Below are positions 17,114-60,108 of a DNA stretch of 64,000 nt, in pieces. This DNA comes from Aldrovandia affinis (Eukaryota > Chordata > Actinopteri > Notacanthiformes > Halosauridae), in contig JAINUG010000215.1 in NCBI GenBank assembly GCA_029706075.1, positions 62,001 to 126,000 of the forward strand, in the 5' to 3' direction. The translations under genes were made by a program, and so were the position numbers. Numbering within the stretch: position 1 is the stretch's first letter; the number at the start of each line of letters is the position of its first letter. Under the pieces are notes generated by a model. It was not told where the DNA came from, did no database searches, and saw only the letters and a program-made list of their open reading frames with translations.

Positions 17114-20100
17114 ATGTGTGTGTGTGTGCTTCACAGGGGATTCATGGCCTGGCTGCCCTCCTCATATGCATGGGGAAACTTCAGTGTGCTGGGGGTGGGG
17201 GTATGGGCCATCGGCCAGAGAGACTCACTCGATGCTGTACTGATGGTGAGGGGAAAACATTTTGACATGCAGCATACAATGAACTGCACAGTAACTCACA
17301 AGTTCTGAAGTCAAGTAAAATGTTTTTTTTACATTTTATTCATACAAATATGGGATATATATATATATATGGAAGATACATATTTGGAGAAAACTGAAAG
17401 AAAGTAATGCTTCCAGAGCTGTTAGTGTCTTGTTAACAGCTACAGGTCACCTCTGTTCTGTATCTGAGCCATGGTTCTGAACAGCCCTTCCCCTCCCACA
17501 GTTCCTGGTGGGAATGACGGTGACGTTGCTGACGGACATCATTCATTTCGGGGTTTACTATCCCCTGGCGGAGGGTCTGGCTGAGAGGAACCGGGACACC
17601 TTCCGCTTCAGCGTGGGCATGGCCATCGTCAACCTGCTGCTCAAGCCTGTGTCCTGCTTCTTCCTGTATCAGATGTACCGCGAGAGGGGCGGGGAGTACA
17701 ACGTCAACTTCGGTAAGCAGACTGCCGGACAGGGGCGGGGGCTTGTGTCTTTACACCGCGACTTGCATTCTACAGAAAATTAGATCTGCATTCTCTCTCT
17801 CTCACCGCGATACAGTGTCCCAGTGGTCGATTCAGTCAGCACGCCGAACAAAAATGCCAATTGATTCAAAGGAGGGTCCGTGTCCTTGTTCATGGTTTAA
17901 TGTGCTCGCGGCGTTGGATGTTTCTCGGAGAGAGCATATGAAGACAGTGGATATTCGCCCATAACCAGTACAGTCCAGTTTTGAAACAATGTGCCATTTT
18001 CACTCCTGTAGCACTGAACGTGAAAGTGGACACATTTAAAACAGCCATACACACGGTCATTTCAAGTGGTTCAGCTAAACGAGTCCACGTCTGTCACAAG
18101 ATGTAAGCCCATGCACCTTATTTGGCTGTATTATATATGCCATTTATCAGACGCTTTTATCAAGCGACTTATAGTAGTGAATGCATACATTTTTCAGTAT
18201 ATGTGGTCCCAGTGGGAATCGAACCCACGACCTAAGCGTTGCCAACGCCACGCTCTACCTACTGAGCCACACAGAACCACAGGCTGTAGGTGAAACCAGC
18301 ATATGTGAGAACTGCAAAAATGGGTGAGATCTTCAACCAAGGAACATACAGATTGTGTGTAATAATTATGATTATTATAAGTACATTACTAAATTAAAAT
18401 GTTGTGGATAGTGTCACACTCTGATATCTTGTTCCTGGGGATGTGGCCTTGAACTAACTCACATTTCCATGAGCCCGTTCTGTCGATGCCATCAGAAATA
18501 GAACCGGTGATTATGACCAGTGCCATGCTGTTTGTAGGGTTTAAATGATACATTTTTAAATGAGAGATTTGCATACAAGGACAACGCTTAATAAATCCTA
18601 ACTCTTGGTGAAATGTTTTTAAATTTGACTGGCTAATTTTAGTTCCATCATTGGGTGAATGACGAAATACCGACTGAATTTGTGTTTCATTAACTCCGTT
18701 TTGAGGAGGAGTTAATGAATTGCAAGCAGAAATGTCGGGCAGGAGGTGTGATCAAGGGAGGTGATTATTGCAGCAGAGGTTATTGATGTTGGGGGGAGGA
18801 GGGGTAGGCTATTATTAATCAAAAACGATTTCAGTGCTTTGCAAATTGTACGTAATACAGGTAGTACATACTGTTTTGGAAGCTGGTTATATTTAGCTTT
18901 AATGTTAAAGGGAAATTTATAAGCATTTGCAGTCAGATAAGAGCAGCCCATATCTTCAAATCATGGCAGTGAGTAGCAACGACTGTCCTGTGTTATCGAC
19001 AGGTACACAATCCAGAACTAATTCTAGAAATGCAAACATGGGGTGAAACATTTAGGTGAATCCTTATAAAAAATAAAATGGCTGCCAATGTGCTAAGCGA
19101 CCATACGTCGCCATTTATCTTACAAAATGACATTAATTAACCATAGTTGAAATCGGTAAGCTGTGCACATGCCTGTGAATATCTCAAATACAAACACACA
19201 CGCACAAAAGTTATTTAAAAAAACCTAATAATATTCAAGCCCTGTTGTTAGGGTCTAAATCAAGCTTGTTGCTTATTCTGACAGGGAATTTATTATCGCC
19301 GTGATCTGCAGCAGTGCGACCTTTAGCTGCGCCTTCTCTGTCAAACATCCATCCAGTCCACAGGCCTCTAATTTATCACTTGAGTTGGTATTCTTTGTTG
19401 ATTTTGCACACAATTATAGCCCCCGCCACCCACCCCCCAGCCAAGGCCCCTTGCAGTGTCGCCCCACCCCCCAGCCAAGGCCCCTTGCAACTGCCATATT
19501 TTAGCTGCTACAATCACTGAGGGCCATCAAGGGATCTTAATTTAAATCTGGTAACCCTTACACACACCATTGAACCTCACAGGTTTTGATTAAAATTGTG
19601 ACACTGTTCATTTTTGAATGTATTGATCTTTTTAGGTGCATACTGAATAGTATTCAGGTTAGAATTAAGAAATCTAATTGAGTAAGTATATTCATGTATA
19701 TAATAGAGTATATCATTAATTTATCTATATGCATGTATTAGTTAAAGTCTCTATTTGTTTCAAAATATTTGTTTACTCATTCTCTTTTACTTGTCCCTTG
19801 GGATATTTAACCTACTTTTACAAAGGATAGTGGCACATCTTTACTGAGATATGTTGCGAATTTGCCTTGGTTTTTCCCAGAGACATGTTGTAAGACATGT
19901 TATGTGTGTGACAGGCTTGCATCGGCTCTCTCTGCACCTTCTGGCTTCCATTTCCTCCTCTTGGTTTGTGACCTCATTTCCTGCTCTTGGTTTGTGACCT
20001 CACCTCCTCTGTGTATGGTTGTGCCTCTCTCCCTCTGCTGACCCTGTCCTTTCTCTGTGTCTCTCTCTTTGGATCGGTCCCCACGTCCTGCATCTTGGCC

Positions 20101-23100: not shown

Positions 23101-26100
23101 CCCTCAAACGACAGAAGCGCAGTTGATATTAGTCTTTTGGGGGCAATCGATGAGAAACTCAACAAGCTTGACATCCTTGATCTGCTCAAATCAGACACGA
23201 TGGAGCTGAAGACAAGCCTGGAGTACAGTCACTACTTGATCGGAGAGCTGAGGACTGAAAATCACAGGACCAAAGGTAGCGTAAACCTTTTGAAAAGTAG
23301 ACTTTATTCCATTGGCCGAAAAAAGAAATCGGAGTTCTGGTTGAGACCAAGAATTGGAATCTTTGAGATGATTTCTGCATCGCTCATTGAAACCTTTTTT
23401 GGCCTACGGTAGCTTATGTTTAAAAAATGAATAAAATAACTTTATTAATAAAATGCTTTAATATTCAATGATGTTACGTGCTGTCGTTGTGCCTCACAGA
23501 CAAGTGATATCTCGTCAGGTGATATGCCAGATTTATAGTGCTTGTAAGTTACCATTATTATGCCATTATTATAATATTTTACACCGTACAGGCCACACAC
23601 AATACTACAGGAGAGCCAGTGACTATTTTACACCCTACAGGCCACACACAATACTACAGGAGAGCCAGTGACTATTTTACATCCTACAGGCCACACACAA
23701 TACTACAGGAGAGCCAGTGACTATTTTACATCCTACAGGCCACACACAATACTACAGGAGAGCCAGTGACTATTTTACATCCTACAGGCCACACACAATA
23801 CTACAGGAGAGCCAGTGACTATTTTACATCCTACAGGCCACACACAATACTACAGGAGAGCCAGTGACTATTTTACATCCTACAGGCCACACACAATACT
23901 ACAGGAGGGCCAGTGACTATTTTACATCCTGCAGTCAACACAGTGACTATTTTATACAAACAGGCCATACTACAGAAGAGCCAGTGGCCACACACAATAT
24001 TTTAGTGACATTTTACATCCTACAGGCCACACACAATACTACAGGAGAGCCAGTGACTATTTTACATCCTACAGGCCACACACAATACTACAGGAGGGCC
24101 AGTGACTATTTTACATCCTACAGTCAACACAGTGACTATTTTATACCCTACAGGCCACACACAATACTACAGAAGAGCCCATGACTATTTTATACCCTAC
24201 AGGCCACACACAATACTACAGGAGAGCCAGTGACTATTTTACATCCTACAGTCAACACAGTGCATTGGAGTGAAAGTCGGGGTGCCTGACGTGTTGGCAA
24301 TAGTTATTGAGATGGTAACCCAAGGAACCCTGGCCAGCTTAAACCCACCGTATTCCTGGTTGGATGAGTCCATAAGTCGGTGCATCGGTAATGAGCACAT
24401 GGTTTGTGTCAGTAATTGCGTCAGAAATTGTGTCAGTAATGAGCACATGGCTCGCATCAGTAATGAGCACATGTTACTGTCTTGAGATTGTCAGCAGCAG
24501 TAGTCCATCTGTACCTTGCATGTTTTGCATGTCCACAGTTTTGAGTTTTTTATTCATATACTGCAGCTACTAGCCATTGTTTTTTTGGGGGGTTTATTTA
24601 TATTTTTAGCAGTTTTTTTCCCCCCATTTTTTAGTATCCAAATCCCTCTCTCTTTTTTTGTGCCAATTATCCCCTCCCTCGTATGAGAACTCACTGCTGT
24701 AGTCCAGCCAGTAGCCAGCGCTGCACTGCCTCCTTCGAGCCAGTGCCCGCCTAGGCCAAAGCCTGTCACCGACGCATGACCACTCATATATGCAGCGAGT
24801 CTTTCCTTCGGCTTTTATCCCTCCCCCCAGGGGCGGACAGCCAATTGCCGCCCCCTAGTGGCACGGCCCAGCCAGAGCCGAAACTGGCGCGACCGGTGGA
24901 ATCAAACCCCAGTCGCCGTGGCTAGCGTCAAACGCGGGAGGCCAACTACTATCCATTGTTGATGCAAAATCCCAAATAATTCCAAACCTTTGATGCACAA
25001 TATGTCTTGACAGAGGTAAGAAAACAACCTGTGTGCTGGTATTTCTGAGCAATCTGATTCAAAATGATAAAGCACACTGACGCCTGTTGTGTCCACATTT
25101 CAGTCTAGCTACGCAAAAGTTTACGTATACGTTCATGAATTAGAAAACGCTTCAACATGACAGTTTCACACCCTATCACTGGAGAAAAGTTGATGGTAAC
25201 TTAAAAATGAATAACCCATTGTGTTTCGCACGCTAAGGCCTAGAAACACAAAGTGCAATTAATTTCCTTTTATTTGAACTAACTCATTGATTCCATTTTT
25301 TTAATGTTTTCCTGTTTTAAACAATGTTTTAATGCATTTCTTTAATCACCAAATTTGTTGTGTTAGATACAAAAAAAAATCATACTGTATTGTTGCAATG
25401 TACTGTATGTGATTATTGCTTGAGAATGGAACAAAAATGGTTATTAAAGAAAAACTGTAACGCATCGGGATCCATTCTCCAGTGGAAGGATCACCCTGGA
25501 GCTCACAGTTCCCATCGCGATACTGATCTGGGGGTCAGAATGATTGATGAATCATTCTTGAATAATAGTCATAAGGTCTCCTTGCTCCATGAGTGAACAC
25601 TGTTCAATAGTCCAATGGTAAAAATGACAGACTAATTATTTTCTGCAATGTATTTGCCCTCTTTGACTTCTTCCTAAGGGGTAATTTTTCTTCTTCTGTG
25701 ATCCAGGACTGTGTAATCCAATATACAGTGCTGCCTGGTTAGCTGGCTGGCCATTCCCTTTTCATTAAAATGGTTTAAATCTGCAGAAATCCACTGATAA
25801 GCAGAGTTGAATGTTCCTACCTTTTCAGCATTGTCACCGCTTCTGGTCACTTAAAACATTGGCTTCTCTAGACCCTAATTATAGCCACGGCTTCCATTGG
25901 CTGTTTCATAGCACCATAAACTACCATGCAAGATGAAGACCATGCAATTTCAGTCACCTGGTTACAAATGAGCAATGACAGATTTCTTTTACCAATGCCT
26001 CAGGCTCTGATGCCTCATAGGAACCGTAACATTTTTGCATCTGAATTCAGGGATGGGAGAGAGTGGCTTCCGGAATTTCCAAAACAACGAATTAATCTCT

Positions 26101-40295: not shown

Positions 40296-40692
40296 TTGGA
40301 TTTATATAGCTTCTCAAGGAACCCAAAGCACTTTATAATGATAGGAGCAACTCACCTCAACCACCACCAATGTGCAACACCCACCTGGGTGAACGCAACG
40401 GCAGCCATAGTGCGCCAGTACAAACTCACCACACATCAGATACACAGTGGAGAGCCGAGGAGGGAGGGAATGAATTGTATATATATTGTCTGGGTTGGGA
40501 ATTTGGCCAGGACACCGGGTTAACACCCTACTCTTTTTCGAGAAGTGCCATGGGATCTTTTATGACCACAGAGAGTCAGGACCTCGGTTTTTACCATCCC
40601 ATCCGAACGACAGACATGTAGTCCCGTGGGATCGAACCCACAGCCTTGGCATTGCCAGTGCCATGCTCTACCAACTGAGCTACAGAACTACT
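40296..40692 (-). mobile_element. tRNA-derived SINE, family A, near full length
   Basis: On the minus strand the head TAGCTCAGTTGGTAGAGCA has a good A box and GGGTTCGATCCCAC a B box. The body follows, and the 3' end TTATAAAGTGCTTTGGGTTC...AAGCTATATAAATCC resembles the end of L2-type LINEs. It lies just upstream of the L2 element. Confidence 0.85.
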
Positions 40693-50400: not shown

Positions 50401-51263
50401 GATTTTATTCAAATGTTTGAAAGCATTGATGTTTTTCGCCCATCACCAACCATCAGAAAGGAGATCGCTGAGATGTTAATGGCCTTTAAATATTTCAATT
50501 TCAAATAATTTATCGAGCGAGTGTTACCTTTTTTTCACATTTTTGTGCCATATTGTGCTGTAATATATAGAGACTGGGGGAGTGTGAGCTACGCAGTTAC
50601 GCACTTCTTCTCCACAGTGGGATAATATAAAATAAAAGTACTGTCCTTGACCAACATACTTAACCTGAACTGCTTCAGTAAACATCCAACTGTTTAAAAT
50701 AAATAATATGCACAAAAACAATGCTATGTAAGCTATCTAAGCTGCCCTGTATTAGGGAATCTGCTGTATATACAGTTGGTATTACAAAAAAAAAAAAGCA
50801 TTGGCATTTTTCAAAGATTTTTGCGCATTTTTAGAGACTTACTCAAATAGACTCGCAGCTAAAGGTGCTTCTAGCAAGTATTAAGTCAAGGGGGAGGTTA
50901 ATACTTATGGAATCAATCATTGTCTGTTTTTTTCCATTTGTAATGAAATGAAGTTTTCATGCCAGCTGTGAATGGTGATGCTGTAACGCTCTCTCTCCAG
51001 AGCTGAAGCAGCTAACCTGGTTCAGTGTTGCGGGCCTGCTGATGGTGCTGTTTGGGAGTGCCTGCGCAAGTCTGCCATGCTGACCGCCGGCTCCAACTTC
51101 AACCACATTGTCCAGAACGAGAAGGCCCAGAGCCACGTGCTGGTCACCACTGGGGTGTACTCCTACTGCCGGCACCCCTCCTACGTGGGCTGGTTCTGCT
51201 GGAGCGTGGGCACACAGGTACGGGCACACTGGGCAAGCGCACGCACACACACACATTGCACTT

Positions 51264-56284: not shown

Positions 56285-56450
56285 TTATAGCGGCAGCTCC
56301 TTGCGATTGGGCGTCTCGGTGGCGTTCTTCTGCTTCCCCGTCCAATAGAAATCCTTGCTCTTGAGCGTGGTCTCGTCGGACAGGATGTTGAGCGAGCGGT
56401 TGTCCAGAAGCTTCTCTCGGTTGTCATCTGCGCCGCAGGTCAGGTCGTTC
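56285..56450 (-). CDS. rnf207: rnf207 last coding exon with stop
   Basis: Acceptor GCTTCCACAG. Encodes NDLTCGADDNREKLLDNRSL, NILSDETTLKSKDFYWTGKQ and KNATETPNRKELPL, then TAA (56287-56285). The tail resembles human LKN...KQKNGGDVPTWREHPT in layout rather than exact sequence. Confidence 0.85.
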
Positions 56451-59400
56451 CTGTGGAAGCATGAGCCAGACTGTCAGAAGTCAGCTAACTTCGAGAATTG
56501 CTATGGAAATGATAGTATATAATTGCCTATTGCTTAGCTGCTATTGCACACTGTTGTAGCAGTAACAGTGGTTCTCAAAGGGTTATGGCCCTGTTGTGTG
56601 TCGCAAAAGATTGCGAAGTGGGTCACTAATTTAATTCCATGATCTGGAATTTGAAATTTGAAAGAGTTTCTAAATTTCTATGGCTTTGACACATTTCCTC
56701 TCCTGTGATACATAGTTTGACCACAGCAGGCATTATACAGGCCAGCAAATGCATTGCATTTAGCAACGTTACTATCCATGTAGCAATGAAGCTAAGTTAA
56801 GTAGTTAGTTACTTCGTAAGCCAAAGTGAGCATGTGTGAAACGGATCTAAAGTAGAGCGGATTGGCTGTGTGAAACGGAAAGATGAGCATGTTGGCTGTG
56901 TGAAACGGATCTAAAGTAGAGCGGGAGACTGGGATTGGCTGTGTGAAACAGATCTAACGTAGAGCAGGAGACTGGGATTGGCTGTGTGAAACAGATCTAA
57001 AGTAGAGCGGGAGACTGGGATTGGCTGTGTGAAACAGATCTAAAGTAGAGCAGGGAGACTGGGATTGGCTGTGTGAAACAGATCTAACATAGATCTAGAG
57101 CGGGAGACTGGGATTGGCTGTGTGAAACAGATCTAACGTAGAGCGGGAGACTGGGATTGCCTGTGTTGAGTCTCAGTGCCCATGGTCGTGTCCTCGTAGA
57201 TCTTCAGCATCGTCTCGGTGCGGTCATCCTGCAGCTCTTTCGGCTCCTTCAGCCTGTCAGGGGCAAAGTTACAGCTGTTTAAATTACAGGTGTTTAAGTT
57301 ACAGCTGTTTAAATTACAGGTGTTTGTAAATTGCAGGTGTTTGTGAATCGCAGGTGGGAATCCAGCAGACGTGCTAGGGATTAAACAACAAATTTACAGT
57401 TTTACCTGAGCAAGATCATTCTCAGCACAAATGATGTAATCGCCCAGAGCAATATGATGCTGAATATGATTTCAGAATTTACGCCTTATGGCACGTAAAT
57501 ATGGACCATTTTGTCTTTTACTTTTGTTTCCATTTTTCCTCAAGTTCCTCCGACATTCGTCCTCCGTGACTTTCACAGCACGCAGCAGTAACTCAAATTT
57601 ATTGGTGACTTTTACAGTGTTACAGTTGCTGCCGCGCAGAGCTATAACCCTCAATTTATTCCTTAATTTTACTGTGATACAATTGGTGCACAGCCTGCCT
57701 CGGTGGCACACGGTGATTCACTGCACAGAAAGCTTACAATTAGGGCTGAAATTAGTGCACCCAAGGCATCCATAACCGCAGAGCTCGGAGGAAGGAGGAG
57801 ACAATGAGCTGAGAGAGAGAGAGAGAGAGAGTGGGCGAGCGGCGGCTGAGGTATCCCTACTTTCATGCAATGCTATAGTTCTCGGGCAAAACCTTTTTGG
57901 AATCAATTTATTTCCAATTCTGTGGTAGATAGTTTGTATTACAGTATTCATTGCTTTAATAGATGAAGAGAGGTGGAACAAACCAATAACTGGAACTAAA
58001 GAAAAATACTGTACTATTCCAAAAGACCCTTTTTAGGCCATCTAAATGAGTACCCTATGGGCTGTCAGGCTATTAAAATACTATAATAATTAAACAGGTT
58101 TTGATAAATCTATTGTTTAGTTTTTTTAAATAGTTGTGATTAGAAAATAAATTATTTGAATTGAATTACTGGAATTTAATCCCCCCTATTAACTACTATT
58201 TTTACTTTAATCAGTTACACATTTACTTCATTTTTTAATTATTTCTTAATTAATTAATTGCATTTGAGTGTTTTTTAATTGTATTCATGATTCTATGATA
58301 GGAATTGTGAGGAAATGTTGGTTCTAGTTTTTAAAAATCTCCTTTTAAAATTCCTGTGTTTCATGTTTGACAGAACACCAATCATCACAAATTGTTACAC
58401 GGAAATACCTGGTCCAACCAAATGCACACTCAAACACATCATGCAAGTATCAATCATATTTATACCTAGTATCTGCATAACACTAAAAGAACAATGAATC
58501 TAGAAATGTTAATATATAAAATCTAAATTCCATTCTGACGTATGAAATTGACAATTCCAAATCCAATTCCAGTTTAAAATGTTGAAGTTCCAATTCAATT
58601 CCAACTCCAAAGACTGAAACGTTCACCCTTCCAATTCAATTCCAAATTGAAGAATCTGAATTCCAAATCATGAATTGGAATTACAAGAATCGTTCAAATT
58701 TCTTAAGATTTGAATTGTATTTCTCCCACGAATTTCAATGTATAGAATTGAACTGAATTGACCCCAACCATGTTCACAAATGGTTAAGAATAACTTGGGT
58801 GAAGATTACCTGGGCTCCAGGCGTTCCTTCACCTTGGCGATGGAGCGGATGTAGGGCCCAATCTGTCGAGCGATGGTGGTCAGGTACGTGTTCTCCTGCT
58901 TTAGCTGCAGTAGGTCGTGCAGCTGAGCTGGAAACGGAACACAAATACCACGTCAAGGCAAGTTCTCACCACACGCACCTGAATCAAGATCATGTGTCCA
59001 GCGGTCCCTCTTACCTTCGTAGATTTCCTGCTCATTCGCCACCCTCTGAAACGTTTCTTCCCAGATCTACAAAGGGAGGGAGGGGCGACAGAAACACTCA
59101 CCCTGTTAGACTAACTGTCTTTGCTCCTGTTGAAAGGCAAATGTTCAAACACAACCTCATCTGTGCATGCGAGGGCAACTCTATACTCTCCTCCCCACCC
59201 CTTTGAGTTACACCTCAAATATGCCTCATCTCCTCTCCGCTCCTGTTTTCTACACCTCCTCAAACACGCCCCTTATCCCCCACTTGGAGCCTCTCTCATC
59301 CCCACCTCCTCAAACACGCCCCTAACTCCCCTTGGAGCCTCTCCCATCCCCACCTCCTCAAACATGGCCCTCATCATCTCCACGGAGGAGTACTCGGAGG

Positions 59401-60108
59401 CGATCTCTCCGTCCATGTGCATGGACCTCTCCAGTATCTCGCCCATGGTGTCCGTCTTTATGAGCGAGTGGTGCTTGGTCAGGTCCCTGTGGATCTCCTG
59501 CACCTGGTCCTTCAGCTTCTGGATCTCTGTCTGCAGAGTCTGGGTGGAGACACACACGCGCACACGCAACACGTCACGCCCTGGATACACGCTGCAGGTG
59601 GACGGATCATGTAGGATCATGCCATTTCCTGACACCCGCCCACACACCCGTTCTTGTACTTTGAATACTCAACGTGTAGCTGTTCCATTTGGTAGTTGGA
59701 CCATTTGCCCTGTAGCTGCTCTTGTAGGAAGAGGACATACCCTGTAGCTGCTCTTGTAGGAAGAGCACATACTCTGTAGTTGCTCTAGTAGTAAAAGCAC
59801 ATACTTTCTAGTTCTCTTGTAGTAAAAGCACATACTTTCTAGTTCTCTTGTAGTAAAAGCACATACTGTCTAGTTGCTCTTGTAGCAGTAGTACGTACCC
59901 TGTAGCTGCTCTTGTAGTTTGAATACTCACCCGGTAGCTGTTCTCGTAGTTGCGGCAGTGCTCAGTGAAGGGCGTTTCCCCACCCTCGGCCAGCAGGACC
60001 TTGGTGCTGATGTAGCGGTGGGAGGTGGGCTTGCGGACCGCCGAGGTGCCGAGGGACATGTCAATGGTGGAGGGGGAGTGGCAGGGCACAGACAGGGATG
60101 ACTGAAGT
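56285..60108 (-). CDS. rnf207: rnf207, 3' part: last six coding exons (263 residues visible)
   Basis: RNF207 is a RING/B-box protein of heart muscle, linked in human to the QT interval and to HSP70-assisted handling of the hERG channel. Minus-strand coding exons in order are 60108-59931, 59539-59354, 59066-59015, 58927-58810, 57253-57161 and 56450-56285. They cover the C-terminal coiled-coil region: YISTKVLLAEGGETPFTEHC, LKDQVQEIHRDLTKHHSLIK, WEETFQRVANEQEIYEAQLH and IRSIAKVKERLEPR. These match human RNF207 (634 residues) strongly and the tail more weakly. The RING and B-box exons lie right of the window. It is tail to tail with icmt, as I recall in human. Three introns start with tandem copies of their own splice junction, and one donor is GC. 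Confidence 0.95.
56835..57170. repeat. 43-bp minisatellite starting at the rnf207 exon E donor
   Basis: Plus-strand unit: GGCTGTGTGAAACAGATCTA then ACGTAGAGCAGGAGACTGGG then ATT. Copies start at 56937, 56980, 57023, 57067 and 57116. The last partial copy starts at 57159, exactly on the splice donor, and its matched GTGT extends into the exon. More diverged copies run left to about 56835. Confidence 0.95.
57161..57253 (-). CDS. rnf207: rnf207 exon E with a GC donor
   Basis: Acceptor CCCTGACAG. Encodes RLKEPKELQDDRTETMLKIY followed by EDTTMGTETQH and ends two bases into an Arg codon. The exon's minus strand contains no GT. The only junction that fits the phase of the last exon is CACAG/GCAATC, a GC donor. 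It gives QHR/NDLT where human has QAR/NNPG. The donor lies in the first unit of a 43-bp tandem array. Confidence 0.85.
57268..57355. repeat. short tandem repeat before rnf207 exon E
   Basis: Alternating TTACAGCTGTTTAAA and TTACAGGTGTTTAAG units, then TTGCAGGTGTTTGTGA units. It lies in the intron directly upstream of the exon E acceptor. Confidence 0.85.
57812..57832. repeat. (GA)n microsatellite
   Basis: An uninterrupted GA run in the rnf207 intron between exons D and E. Confidence 0.9.
58540..58765. repeat. AATTC-rich degenerate repeat
   Basis: Many irregular copies of CCAATTCAATTCC and its complement over about 220 bases in the rnf207 intron between exons D and E. Possibly a decayed MITE. 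Confidence 0.5.
58810..58927 (-). CDS. rnf207: rnf207 exon D
   Basis: Acceptor CGTTTCCAG. Encodes AQLHDLLQLKQENTYLTTIA then RQIGPYIRSIAKVKERLEP; donor CCCAG/GTAATC, phase 2. Confidence 0.95.
59015..59066 (-). CDS. rnf207: rnf207 exon C
   Basis: Acceptor CCCTTTGTAG. Encodes IWEETFQRVANEQEIYE; donor GAAG/GTAAGA. Followed by a short 87-bp intron. Confidence 0.95.
59252..59365. repeat. tandem copies of the rnf207 exon B/intron junction
   Basis: On the minus strand ATGTTTGAGGAG/GTGGGGATGGGAGAGGCTCC is followed twice more by GTGTTTGAGGAG/GTG, at 48 and 50 bases spacing (plus-strand starts 59354, 59306, 59256). Both extra copies keep the GT. Confidence 0.92.
59354..59539 (-). CDS. rnf207: rnf207 exon B
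   Basis: Acceptor CTCCACCCAG. 62 codons, phase 0 at both ends: TLQTEIQKLKDQVQEIHRDL, TKHHSLIKTDTMGEILERSM, HMDGEIASEYSSVEMMRAMF and EE. Donor GAGGAG/GTGGGG. A coiled coil, strongly matched to human. Confidence 0.95.
59653..59949. repeat. 32-bp minisatellite made of the rnf207 exon A/donor junction
   Basis: The minus-strand unit is a 19-base exon-like part, CTACAAGAGCAGCTACAGG, plus a 13-base donor-like part such as GTATGTGCTCTTC. The real junction is CTACGAGAACAGCTACCGG/GTGAGTATTCAAA. Plus-strand unit starts are 59918 (real), 59886, then at 31-32 bp steps down to about 59695, with a diverged unit beyond. Confidence 0.95.
59931..60108 (-). CDS. rnf207: rnf207 exon A (first visible)
   Basis: Acceptor CTCCTGTAG; one base then 59 codons, LQSSLSVPCHSPSTIDMSLG to TEHCRNYENSYR, with the conserved ISTKVLLAEG. 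The donor is CCGG/GTGAGT, phase 0. The last 19 bases of the exon are repeated with the donor in the array that follows. Confidence 0.93.

Follow-up and report, generated by a model that had tools for sequence, protein, structure and literature searches.

The rnf207 locus

The window, meaning the whole 64,000-nucleotide stretch of Aldrovandia affinis DNA under analysis, carries draxin, icmt and agtrap, whose names are backed by Pfam, together with the 3′ part of a gene that we take to be rnf207 from the human sequence only (the Pfam hit, to AIP3, falls short of the cut-off). Its six exons and the tandem arrays at their boundaries are given below, with exon and intron numbers (E1–E6, I1–I5) that apply within the window; E1, E2, E5 and E6 are based on translation and the joined frame.

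59931..60108, minus strand: exon E1, ending CGG/GTGAGT
59661..59952, minus strand: I1 array of 32-bp units with 22 exonic bases (59931-59952), made up of seven copies (c1-c7) plus, at 59661-59698, a far-end copy that has diverged
59354..59539, minus strand: exon E2, ending GAG/GTGGGG
59253..59371, minus strand: I2 array, 48-bp unit in 2.4 copies by Tandem Repeats Finder (TRF), with 18 exonic bases
59015..59066, minus strand: exon E3, followed by an intron (I3) without an array
58810..58927, minus strand: exon E4, its donor without an array
57266..57356, minus strand: array at the 3′ end of I4, with 15-, 30- and 17-bp units, 12 nt before the E5 acceptor (TRF)
57161..57253, minus strand: exon E5, ending CAG/GCAATC
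56832..57166, minus strand: I5 array of 43-bp units with 6 exonic bases only (ACACAG), seven of its eight copies reading CC where the donor has GC
56285..56450, minus strand: last coding exon E6, holding the stop

Joined, the six exons give a single open frame of 263 residues with a stop at its end, and we regard the model, with minus-strand donors at 59931, 59354, 59015, 58810 and 57161, as sound; in their matched stretches, E1 and E2 are 66% and 59% identical to the human protein. By our reading of the sequence, I5 would be a GC-AG intron, whose donor CAG/GCAATC keeps the frame into E6. Donors were scored with a 5′ splice-site matrix and acceptors with an acceptor score. Two or more exons of rnf207 escaped detection (5,000 N lie within the gene; coding stretch from 69374 to 67303), and the 13 rnf207 donors tested are accordingly not its full set; the junction at 70341, which on our reading breaks the frame at the following exon, was tested as the likeliest site. 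In icmt, exon 4 has a one-base frame break near 51056. A search for a second rnf207 copy for comparison, in which the best candidates were scored, found none, the six matches listed all lying in the rnf207 locus, and a search for its relatives in viral contigs likewise found none.

Arrays across the donors of I1, I2 and I5

A first-pass annotation of this DNA had noticed that three of the five visible rnf207 introns begin with tandem repeats at the junction, and we found this to be so: the 30 bases centred on the junctions of I1, I2 and I5 recur at offsets of 32, 48 and 43, with matches of 20/30, 27/30 and 21/30, respectively. Copies of at least 20/30 are thus present at 3/5 rnf207 donors in the window, vs. 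0/11 draxin, agtrap and icmt donors, which had correctly been described as free of such repeats, and 0/16 acceptors. In a separate test of the 20 exonic bases alone against the adjacent intron, two icmt donors reach nominal p-values of 0.017 and 0.035 (32 junctions tested). The three units, earlier put at 32, about 49 and 43 bp, measure 32, 48 and 43 bp and are, as had been stated, of different sequence; they show no similarity to one another, nor does the rest of the window hold a copy of any of them. A shared transposon-like unit was rejected on this ground and on that of a genome search with the I5 array, which matched only at its own place (the search skips very common words).

The further claim that each unit derives from its own junction is supported for I1 and I2 and only weakly so for I5. 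The I1 unit holds 22 exonic bases and the I2 unit 18, and in both the 20 exonic bases match the adjacent intron better than shuffles do (p 0.0005 and 0.001). These exon tails recur in the introns, and both exons match the human protein; the direction of copying at the two sites was therefore probably from the exon into the intron. In I5, the in-register exonic share is only the ACACAG hexamer, and the exonic 20-mer does not rise above shuffles (p 0.34), which makes an exon origin a weak suggestion here; with so short an exonic share, the origin of this array may lie within the intron itself.

By TRF, the I1 array spans 59710-59918 (unit 32 bp, 6.6 copies) and the I5 array 56892-57166 (unit 43 bp, 6.2 copies). 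Both are diverged towards their edges: I1 copies c1-c7 are 63-96% alike, with the far-end copy the most diverged (32-46% to c1-c7), and the inner I5 copies u2-u5 are 93-100% alike, with flanking copies at 40-79% to them, a pattern that resembles minisatellite turnover. The donor GT is kept in 8/17 array copies overall, namely in 6/7 of I1, 2/2 of I2 and 0/8 of I5; at the junction position of I5, where the real donor is itself a weak GC site, seven copies read CC and the last, diverged one reads GC.

Arrays at other boundaries, local density and controls

Besides these three, we found the I4 3′-end array, absent from the first-pass annotation, an array 39 nt before the rnf207 acceptor near 65478 (an acceptor that reaches a nominal p of 0.02 when its exonic bases are tested) and a fourth donor-side array after donor 64454, which begins some bases into the intron, with its TRF edge 9 nt from the donor. 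The upstream introns, whose inspection had been proposed, thus supplied one further donor-side array, but no copy of at least 20/30 at their 8 further donors and 7 further acceptors (best 17). Altogether, four rnf207 boundary arrays lie beside donors and two beside acceptors. Those that span the junction are all at donors, and a bias towards donors may therefore exist within the gene. Elsewhere in the genome, a chaperonin-family exon (C2467) displays a 28-bp duplication across an acceptor that is script-called and predicted, and fits the frame, and a symporter-family donor (C2021) has an array beginning 14 nt after it. Boundary arrays are hence not strictly limited to donors or to rnf207.

It had also been argued that one chance event would not explain three arrays. 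The 20/30 test is passed by 4.0% of non-simple window positions vs. 22.9% within the rnf207 3′ part, and at this local rate three of five donors are not remarkable by themselves; arrays of the same lengths placed randomly over the gene touch at least three of the five donors in 2.9% of trials. If each is placed randomly inside its own intron, a start no more than 10 nt from the donor is reached by all three with a probability of 1.5e-4. Minisatellites cover a fraction of 0.195 of the rnf207 3′ part, vs. 0.022 of the window outside it and 0.040 of the control loci.

Control donors were called in two sets of matches, the families being named after the Pfam model searched. For the first, 67 matches were listed and 3 dropped for long, single-exon-like frames (one in C890, two in C1513), and the 64 used plus 14 further matches make 78, of which 9 lay outside the fetched loci; the remaining 69 yielded, by script, 50 donors and 59 acceptors. 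For the second, 80 were fetched among 108 matches listed, with 54 donors called and 26 uncalled. Two control acceptors were flagged for an array; C2433 was set aside as misplaced after reading of its sequence and C2467 was kept. An array lies within 15 nt of 4/13 rnf207 donors vs. 1/115 control donors (Fisher p 3e-4), a post hoc count, the gene having been picked after the pattern was seen; the donor caller requires GT and a score of 6 and would miss GC donors such as I5, without which the rnf207 count is 3/12. By the 20/30 measure, the figures are 3/13 vs. 2/115 (Fisher p 0.007), both passing control donors being counted although one lies in a GT microsatellite and one was judged miscalled. 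Were donors independent at the control rate, about 0.1 gene of this kind would be expected among 25,000, so some cause of clustering is needed; 'hot spot' describes this clustering rather than explaining it.

Interpretation of the arrays and alternative explanations

We consider it likely that the I1, I2 and I5 arrays are mirage minisatellites, that is, tolerated short tandem duplications that straddle an exon-intron boundary or start at it, in a local minisatellite hot spot, formed with no dedicated process. All three are minisatellite-sized tandem arrays that start at such a boundary, the units of I1 and I2 contain exon sequence (that of I5 shares only six exonic bases), splice signals are kept in many but not all units, and the rnf207 reading frame is intact provided that the exon-side donors are used. 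Slippage or unequal exchange would have duplicated a segment covering the exon end and the adjoining start of the intron, and the slippage at the exon edge that had been suggested earlier fits the arrays. With a full donor left at the exon edge, splicing would leave the protein unchanged, and the duplication would not be removed by selection; the new copies inside the intron would be free to expand and homogenise as in any minisatellite, and the exon-side copy would be held fixed by selection on the protein. The presence of several arrays would reflect short 3′ introns that form the local hot spot.

The arrays could instead be ordinary intronic minisatellites that grew or rearranged up to the exon, with the junction as end point and not seed. 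The I5 array speaks for such an origin, with its six exonic bases, its non-significant exonic 20-mer and copies that carry GATCTGTTT where the exon has different bases, and so does the array that begins some bases into the intron after donor 64454; as the I1 and I2 arrays contain 22 and 18 bases derived from exons with a match to the human protein, we nevertheless judge it unlikely for the set. A mutational process aimed at the 5′ splice sites of transcribed rnf207, by R-loop-linked or transcription-coupled repair, would agree with the donor enrichment and with the placement of all three junction-spanning rnf207 arrays at donors. That count is post hoc, however, two rnf207 arrays adjoin acceptors, the chaperonin-family duplication also lies at a predicted one, and the sense-strand GC skews of the three arrays (0.0, +0.74 and -0.47) differ in sign and indicate no common R-loop tendency; we hold such a process to be very unlikely, and the R-loop component of the proposal finds no support here.

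Selection might keep the extra donor copies as U1-binding decoys, another earlier suggestion, or to allow regulated alternative splicing, and the retention of GT in most I1 copies and both I2 copies would be in line with this. In I2, the copy donor at 59306 (+48) is in frame and shares its 9-mer with the real donor, and because the two are equally strong (7.6 each), it is uncertain that splicing takes the first; if used, the +48 donor is predicted to yield an isoform with 16 extra in-frame residues and no stop (insert VGMGEAPRGVRGVFEE). Against this, GT is present in none of the I5 copies, GC occurring only in the diverged last one despite the weak GC of the real donor. The I1 copy donors score at most 7.3 vs. 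10.3 for the real one, 5/6 of them are out of frame, the sole in-frame one carries a stop, and conservation of the donor columns does not exceed that of the remaining columns of the array (0.84 vs. 0.86); such selection strikes us as highly improbable, and the suggestion finds no support. False tandem duplication in the assembly, to which the nearby icmt frame break and the 5,000 N in rnf207 might lend some colour, is scarcely credible: the three units are unrelated, identity occurs only among some inner I5 copies, and the divergence of the I1 and I5 copies exceeds that expected for false duplication of one stretch.

Within the mirage reading, we further entertain, though we think it improbable, that rnf207 donors have been a repeated target of junction-spanning duplication in this lineage, with independent mirage births in at least two, probably three, introns. 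If true, the gene could show how splice sites duplicate, how copy number shifts donor choice (as with the I2 donor at +48) and how a vertebrate gains new exon ends. Models of exon extension and intron gain assume junction-spanning duplications as raw material, and a vertebrate gene that carries several, including one with an intact in-frame second donor, offers a natural test of spliceosomal choice between near-identical donors and of how such arrays persist.

Comparison with known systems

The rnf207 arrays are best read as needing no new mechanism. The first-pass annotation knew of no described system of this kind, but one has been published for amphioxus (lancelets), as mirages, minisatellites spanning exon-intron boundaries on both the 5′ and 3′ sides (PMC3087553; see also PMC3902484). 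The genes concerned are Adh3, the globins BflGb6 and BflGb9 and TnC, with PGBD5 compared with them, and the authors report no apparent interference with splicing. The literature that we searched yielded no vertebrate mirage under that name, an absence that does not rule out published examples. Two cases are partial likenesses. In Sparus aurata, intron 1 of myostatin-2 has at its 5′ end a polymorphic block of about 150 bp in one or two copies (PMC3045353), which resembles the rnf207 arrays in being a repeat at the 5′ end of an intron in a fish gene, but its unit is longer, there are at most two copies, and exon bases in the block are not stated in that part of the report. Intron gain in potato (PMC4974935) similarly involves a short tandem duplication across splice signals that is accommodated by splicing; there a new intron arises, whereas in rnf207 the copies stay within an intron. 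The amphioxus mirages are closer: as in rnf207, their units span the exon-intron boundary, splice signals are present in many but not all units, and copies within a cluster are reported to evolve in concert and those at its boundary not to do so. They differ in that allele length differences and RT-PCR were shown for them, whereas the rnf207 arrays are known from one assembly, and in that rnf207 is a vertebrate gene with three such arrays, and a fourth near by, in one gene and at donors.

Tandem arrays at the splice junctions of rnf207

The minus-strand rnf207 gene lies at the right end of the window, where six exons (E1-E6 as numbered within the window, separated by introns I1-I5) join into a single frame of 263 residues with a terminal stop. 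The gene reaches approximately 81468 in window coordinates, i.e., past the window end, and 8 more donors and 7 more acceptors could be placed in 30 kb of extra upstream sequence taken almost wholly from outside the window. The I5 donor at 57161 (CAG/GCAATC) reads as that of a GC-AG intron, and with a T at +2 it would be identical to the E4 donor (CAG/GTAATC).

Exons and junction-associated arrays of rnf207 (window coordinates)
60108-59931, minus strand, exon E1, joined frame
59539-59354, minus strand, exon E2, joined frame
59066-59015, minus strand, exon E3, joined frame
58927-58810, minus strand, exon E4, joined frame
57253-57161, minus strand, exon E5, joined frame
56450-56285, minus strand, exon E6, joined frame, stop
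Start of intron I1, minus strand, array of 32-bp units
Start of intron I2, minus strand, array of 48-bp units
Start of intron I5, minus strand, array of 43-bp units
57266-57356, minus strand, acceptor-side array at the 3' end of I4, 15/30/17-bp units, 12 nt before the E5 acceptor
64232-64445, array in an intron lying past the window end, 26-bp units, 9 nt past donor 64454
65517-65815, array in an intron lying past the window end, 65-bp units, 39 nt short of acceptor 65478

As the first-pass annotation had reported, three of the five visible introns (I1, I2 and I5) open with tandem arrays. The placed part of the gene displays six arrays with units of at least 15 bp, four donor-side and two acceptor-side, and the three that cross a junction all do so at a donor. 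The array at 57266-57356 was absent from that annotation; E5 thus has arrays on either flank.

To recover junction copies, a 30-base segment with the splice junction at its midpoint was taken for 16 donors and 16 acceptors in four genes and compared with the sequence 16 to 120 bases away, with 20/30 identity as the pass mark. Such copies were found at 3/5 rnf207 donors (20, 27 and 21 of 30), at none of the 11 draxin, agtrap and icmt donors, which were indeed said to be free of them, and at 0/16 acceptors; the upstream rnf207 introns likewise yielded none (0/8 donors, 0/7 acceptors). Much of the donor excess is explained by local repeat density, as 22.9% of positions in the rnf207 3' part pass the same mark versus 4.0% of the non-simple window. 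When 20 exonic bases alone were compared with the adjacent intron against shuffles, I1 (p 0.0005) and I2 (p 0.001) stood out, and two icmt donors gave nominal p values of 0.017 and 0.035 among the 32 junctions tested. Accordingly, the proposal that each unit matches its own boundary is borne out for I1 and I2, which are clearly junction-derived, but only partly for I5: its array begins at the junction, with a common stretch of 6 exonic bases plus the intron's first bases, but the exonic match is at p 0.34 and it may have been seeded inside the intron. Random placement of three such arrays over rnf207 touched at least three donors in 2.9% of trials, and the probability that three random donors out of 16 all fall in rnf207 is 0.018, the gene having been chosen post hoc.

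Comparison with other genes of the genome

Control exons were obtained from the 1.22 Gb genome through family searches (chaperonin PF00118, aldehyde dehydrogenase PF00171 and neurotransmitter symporter PF00209), giving, with the 11 non-rnf207 donors of the window, 115 control donors. Arrays within 15 nt were seen at 0/50, 1/54 (symporter family) and 0/11 (window) of these, the sole positive (contig C2021:177980-178460) having 15-bp repeats about 14 nt past the donor, followed by 42-bp repeats. Nearby arrays are enriched in rnf207, marking 4/13 of its donors versus 1/115 controls (Fisher p 3e-4), but with the control rate known to a 95% interval of 0.02-4.7%, independence predicts anything from far below one to dozens of such genes per 25,000. 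Among control acceptors, 1/59 showed a boundary duplication (chaperonin family, contig C2467:3387835), in which two like copies of 28 bp lie across the predicted acceptor of a gene unrelated to rnf207. Minisatellites cover 19.5% of the rnf207 3' part and 5.3% of its middle part, against 2.2% of the remaining window sequence and 4.0% of the control loci; the 3' part is a local minisatellite hot spot.

Elsewhere in the window, a big array of 49-bp units (at least 11.5 copies) occupies 23575-24259, past the agtrap exons found. Two minus-strand tRNA-Ala calls (18203-18278 and 40617-40691) may, at a guess from their flanking sequence, be pieces of tRNA-derived SINEs. In icmt exon 4, a one-base frame break at 51050-51062, relative to the human protein, could be either an assembly error or a genuine change.

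Origin of the arrays

The most likely account is a tolerated duplication across the donor, followed by intronic expansion. A tandem duplication across a donor, presumably by slippage or unequal exchange, would leave the exon edge with an intact donor of its own. Splicing from this first donor, which we infer to be the one used, would leave the protein unchanged and the duplication tolerated, whereas an exon would in many cases not tolerate an equivalent duplication inside it. Once intronic, the copies could expand and homogenise, which fits the likeness of the four inner I5 copies (93-100%, the flanking copies being less alike) and the greatest divergence of the far-end I1 copy. The best I1 copy scores 7.3 as a donor, below the real site at 10.3; the first I2 copy equals its real donor (7.6) and is in frame, its use being predicted to add 16 residues with no stop.

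Two other processes had been suggested. For R-loop-linked repair, we find no common R-loop tendency, because the sense GC skews of the three arrays differ (0.0, +0.74 and -0.47). Selection for extra U1 sites left no sign either: GT is kept in 6/7 I1 and 2/2 I2 copies and in 0/8 of I5, where seven copies read CC at the junction position and the diverged last one GC, and the I1 donor columns are conserved at 0.84 versus 0.86 for the remaining columns. Divergence among the copies argues against an assembly artefact, although this assembly does carry the icmt frame break.

Relation to known boundary repeats

The first-pass annotation knew of no described system of this kind; however, the literature already describes amphioxus "mirages", tandem repeats over exon-intron boundaries in Adh3 and two globin genes, with more loci cited (PMC3087553). 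These occur at both boundaries, carry splice signals in many, not all, units, apparently leave splicing unharmed and vary in copy number among haplotypes (PMC3087553); TnC was added to the mirage loci and PGBD5 duplications were likened to them (PMC3902484). In a fish, the 5' end of myostatin-2 intron 1 has a block of about 150 bp in one or two copies, varying among individuals (PMC3045353). Given these precedents, we file the rnf207 arrays with the already described boundary-spanning repeats, from the amphioxus examples of which they differ in their vertebrate host gene and in the unusual occurrence of several in one gene.
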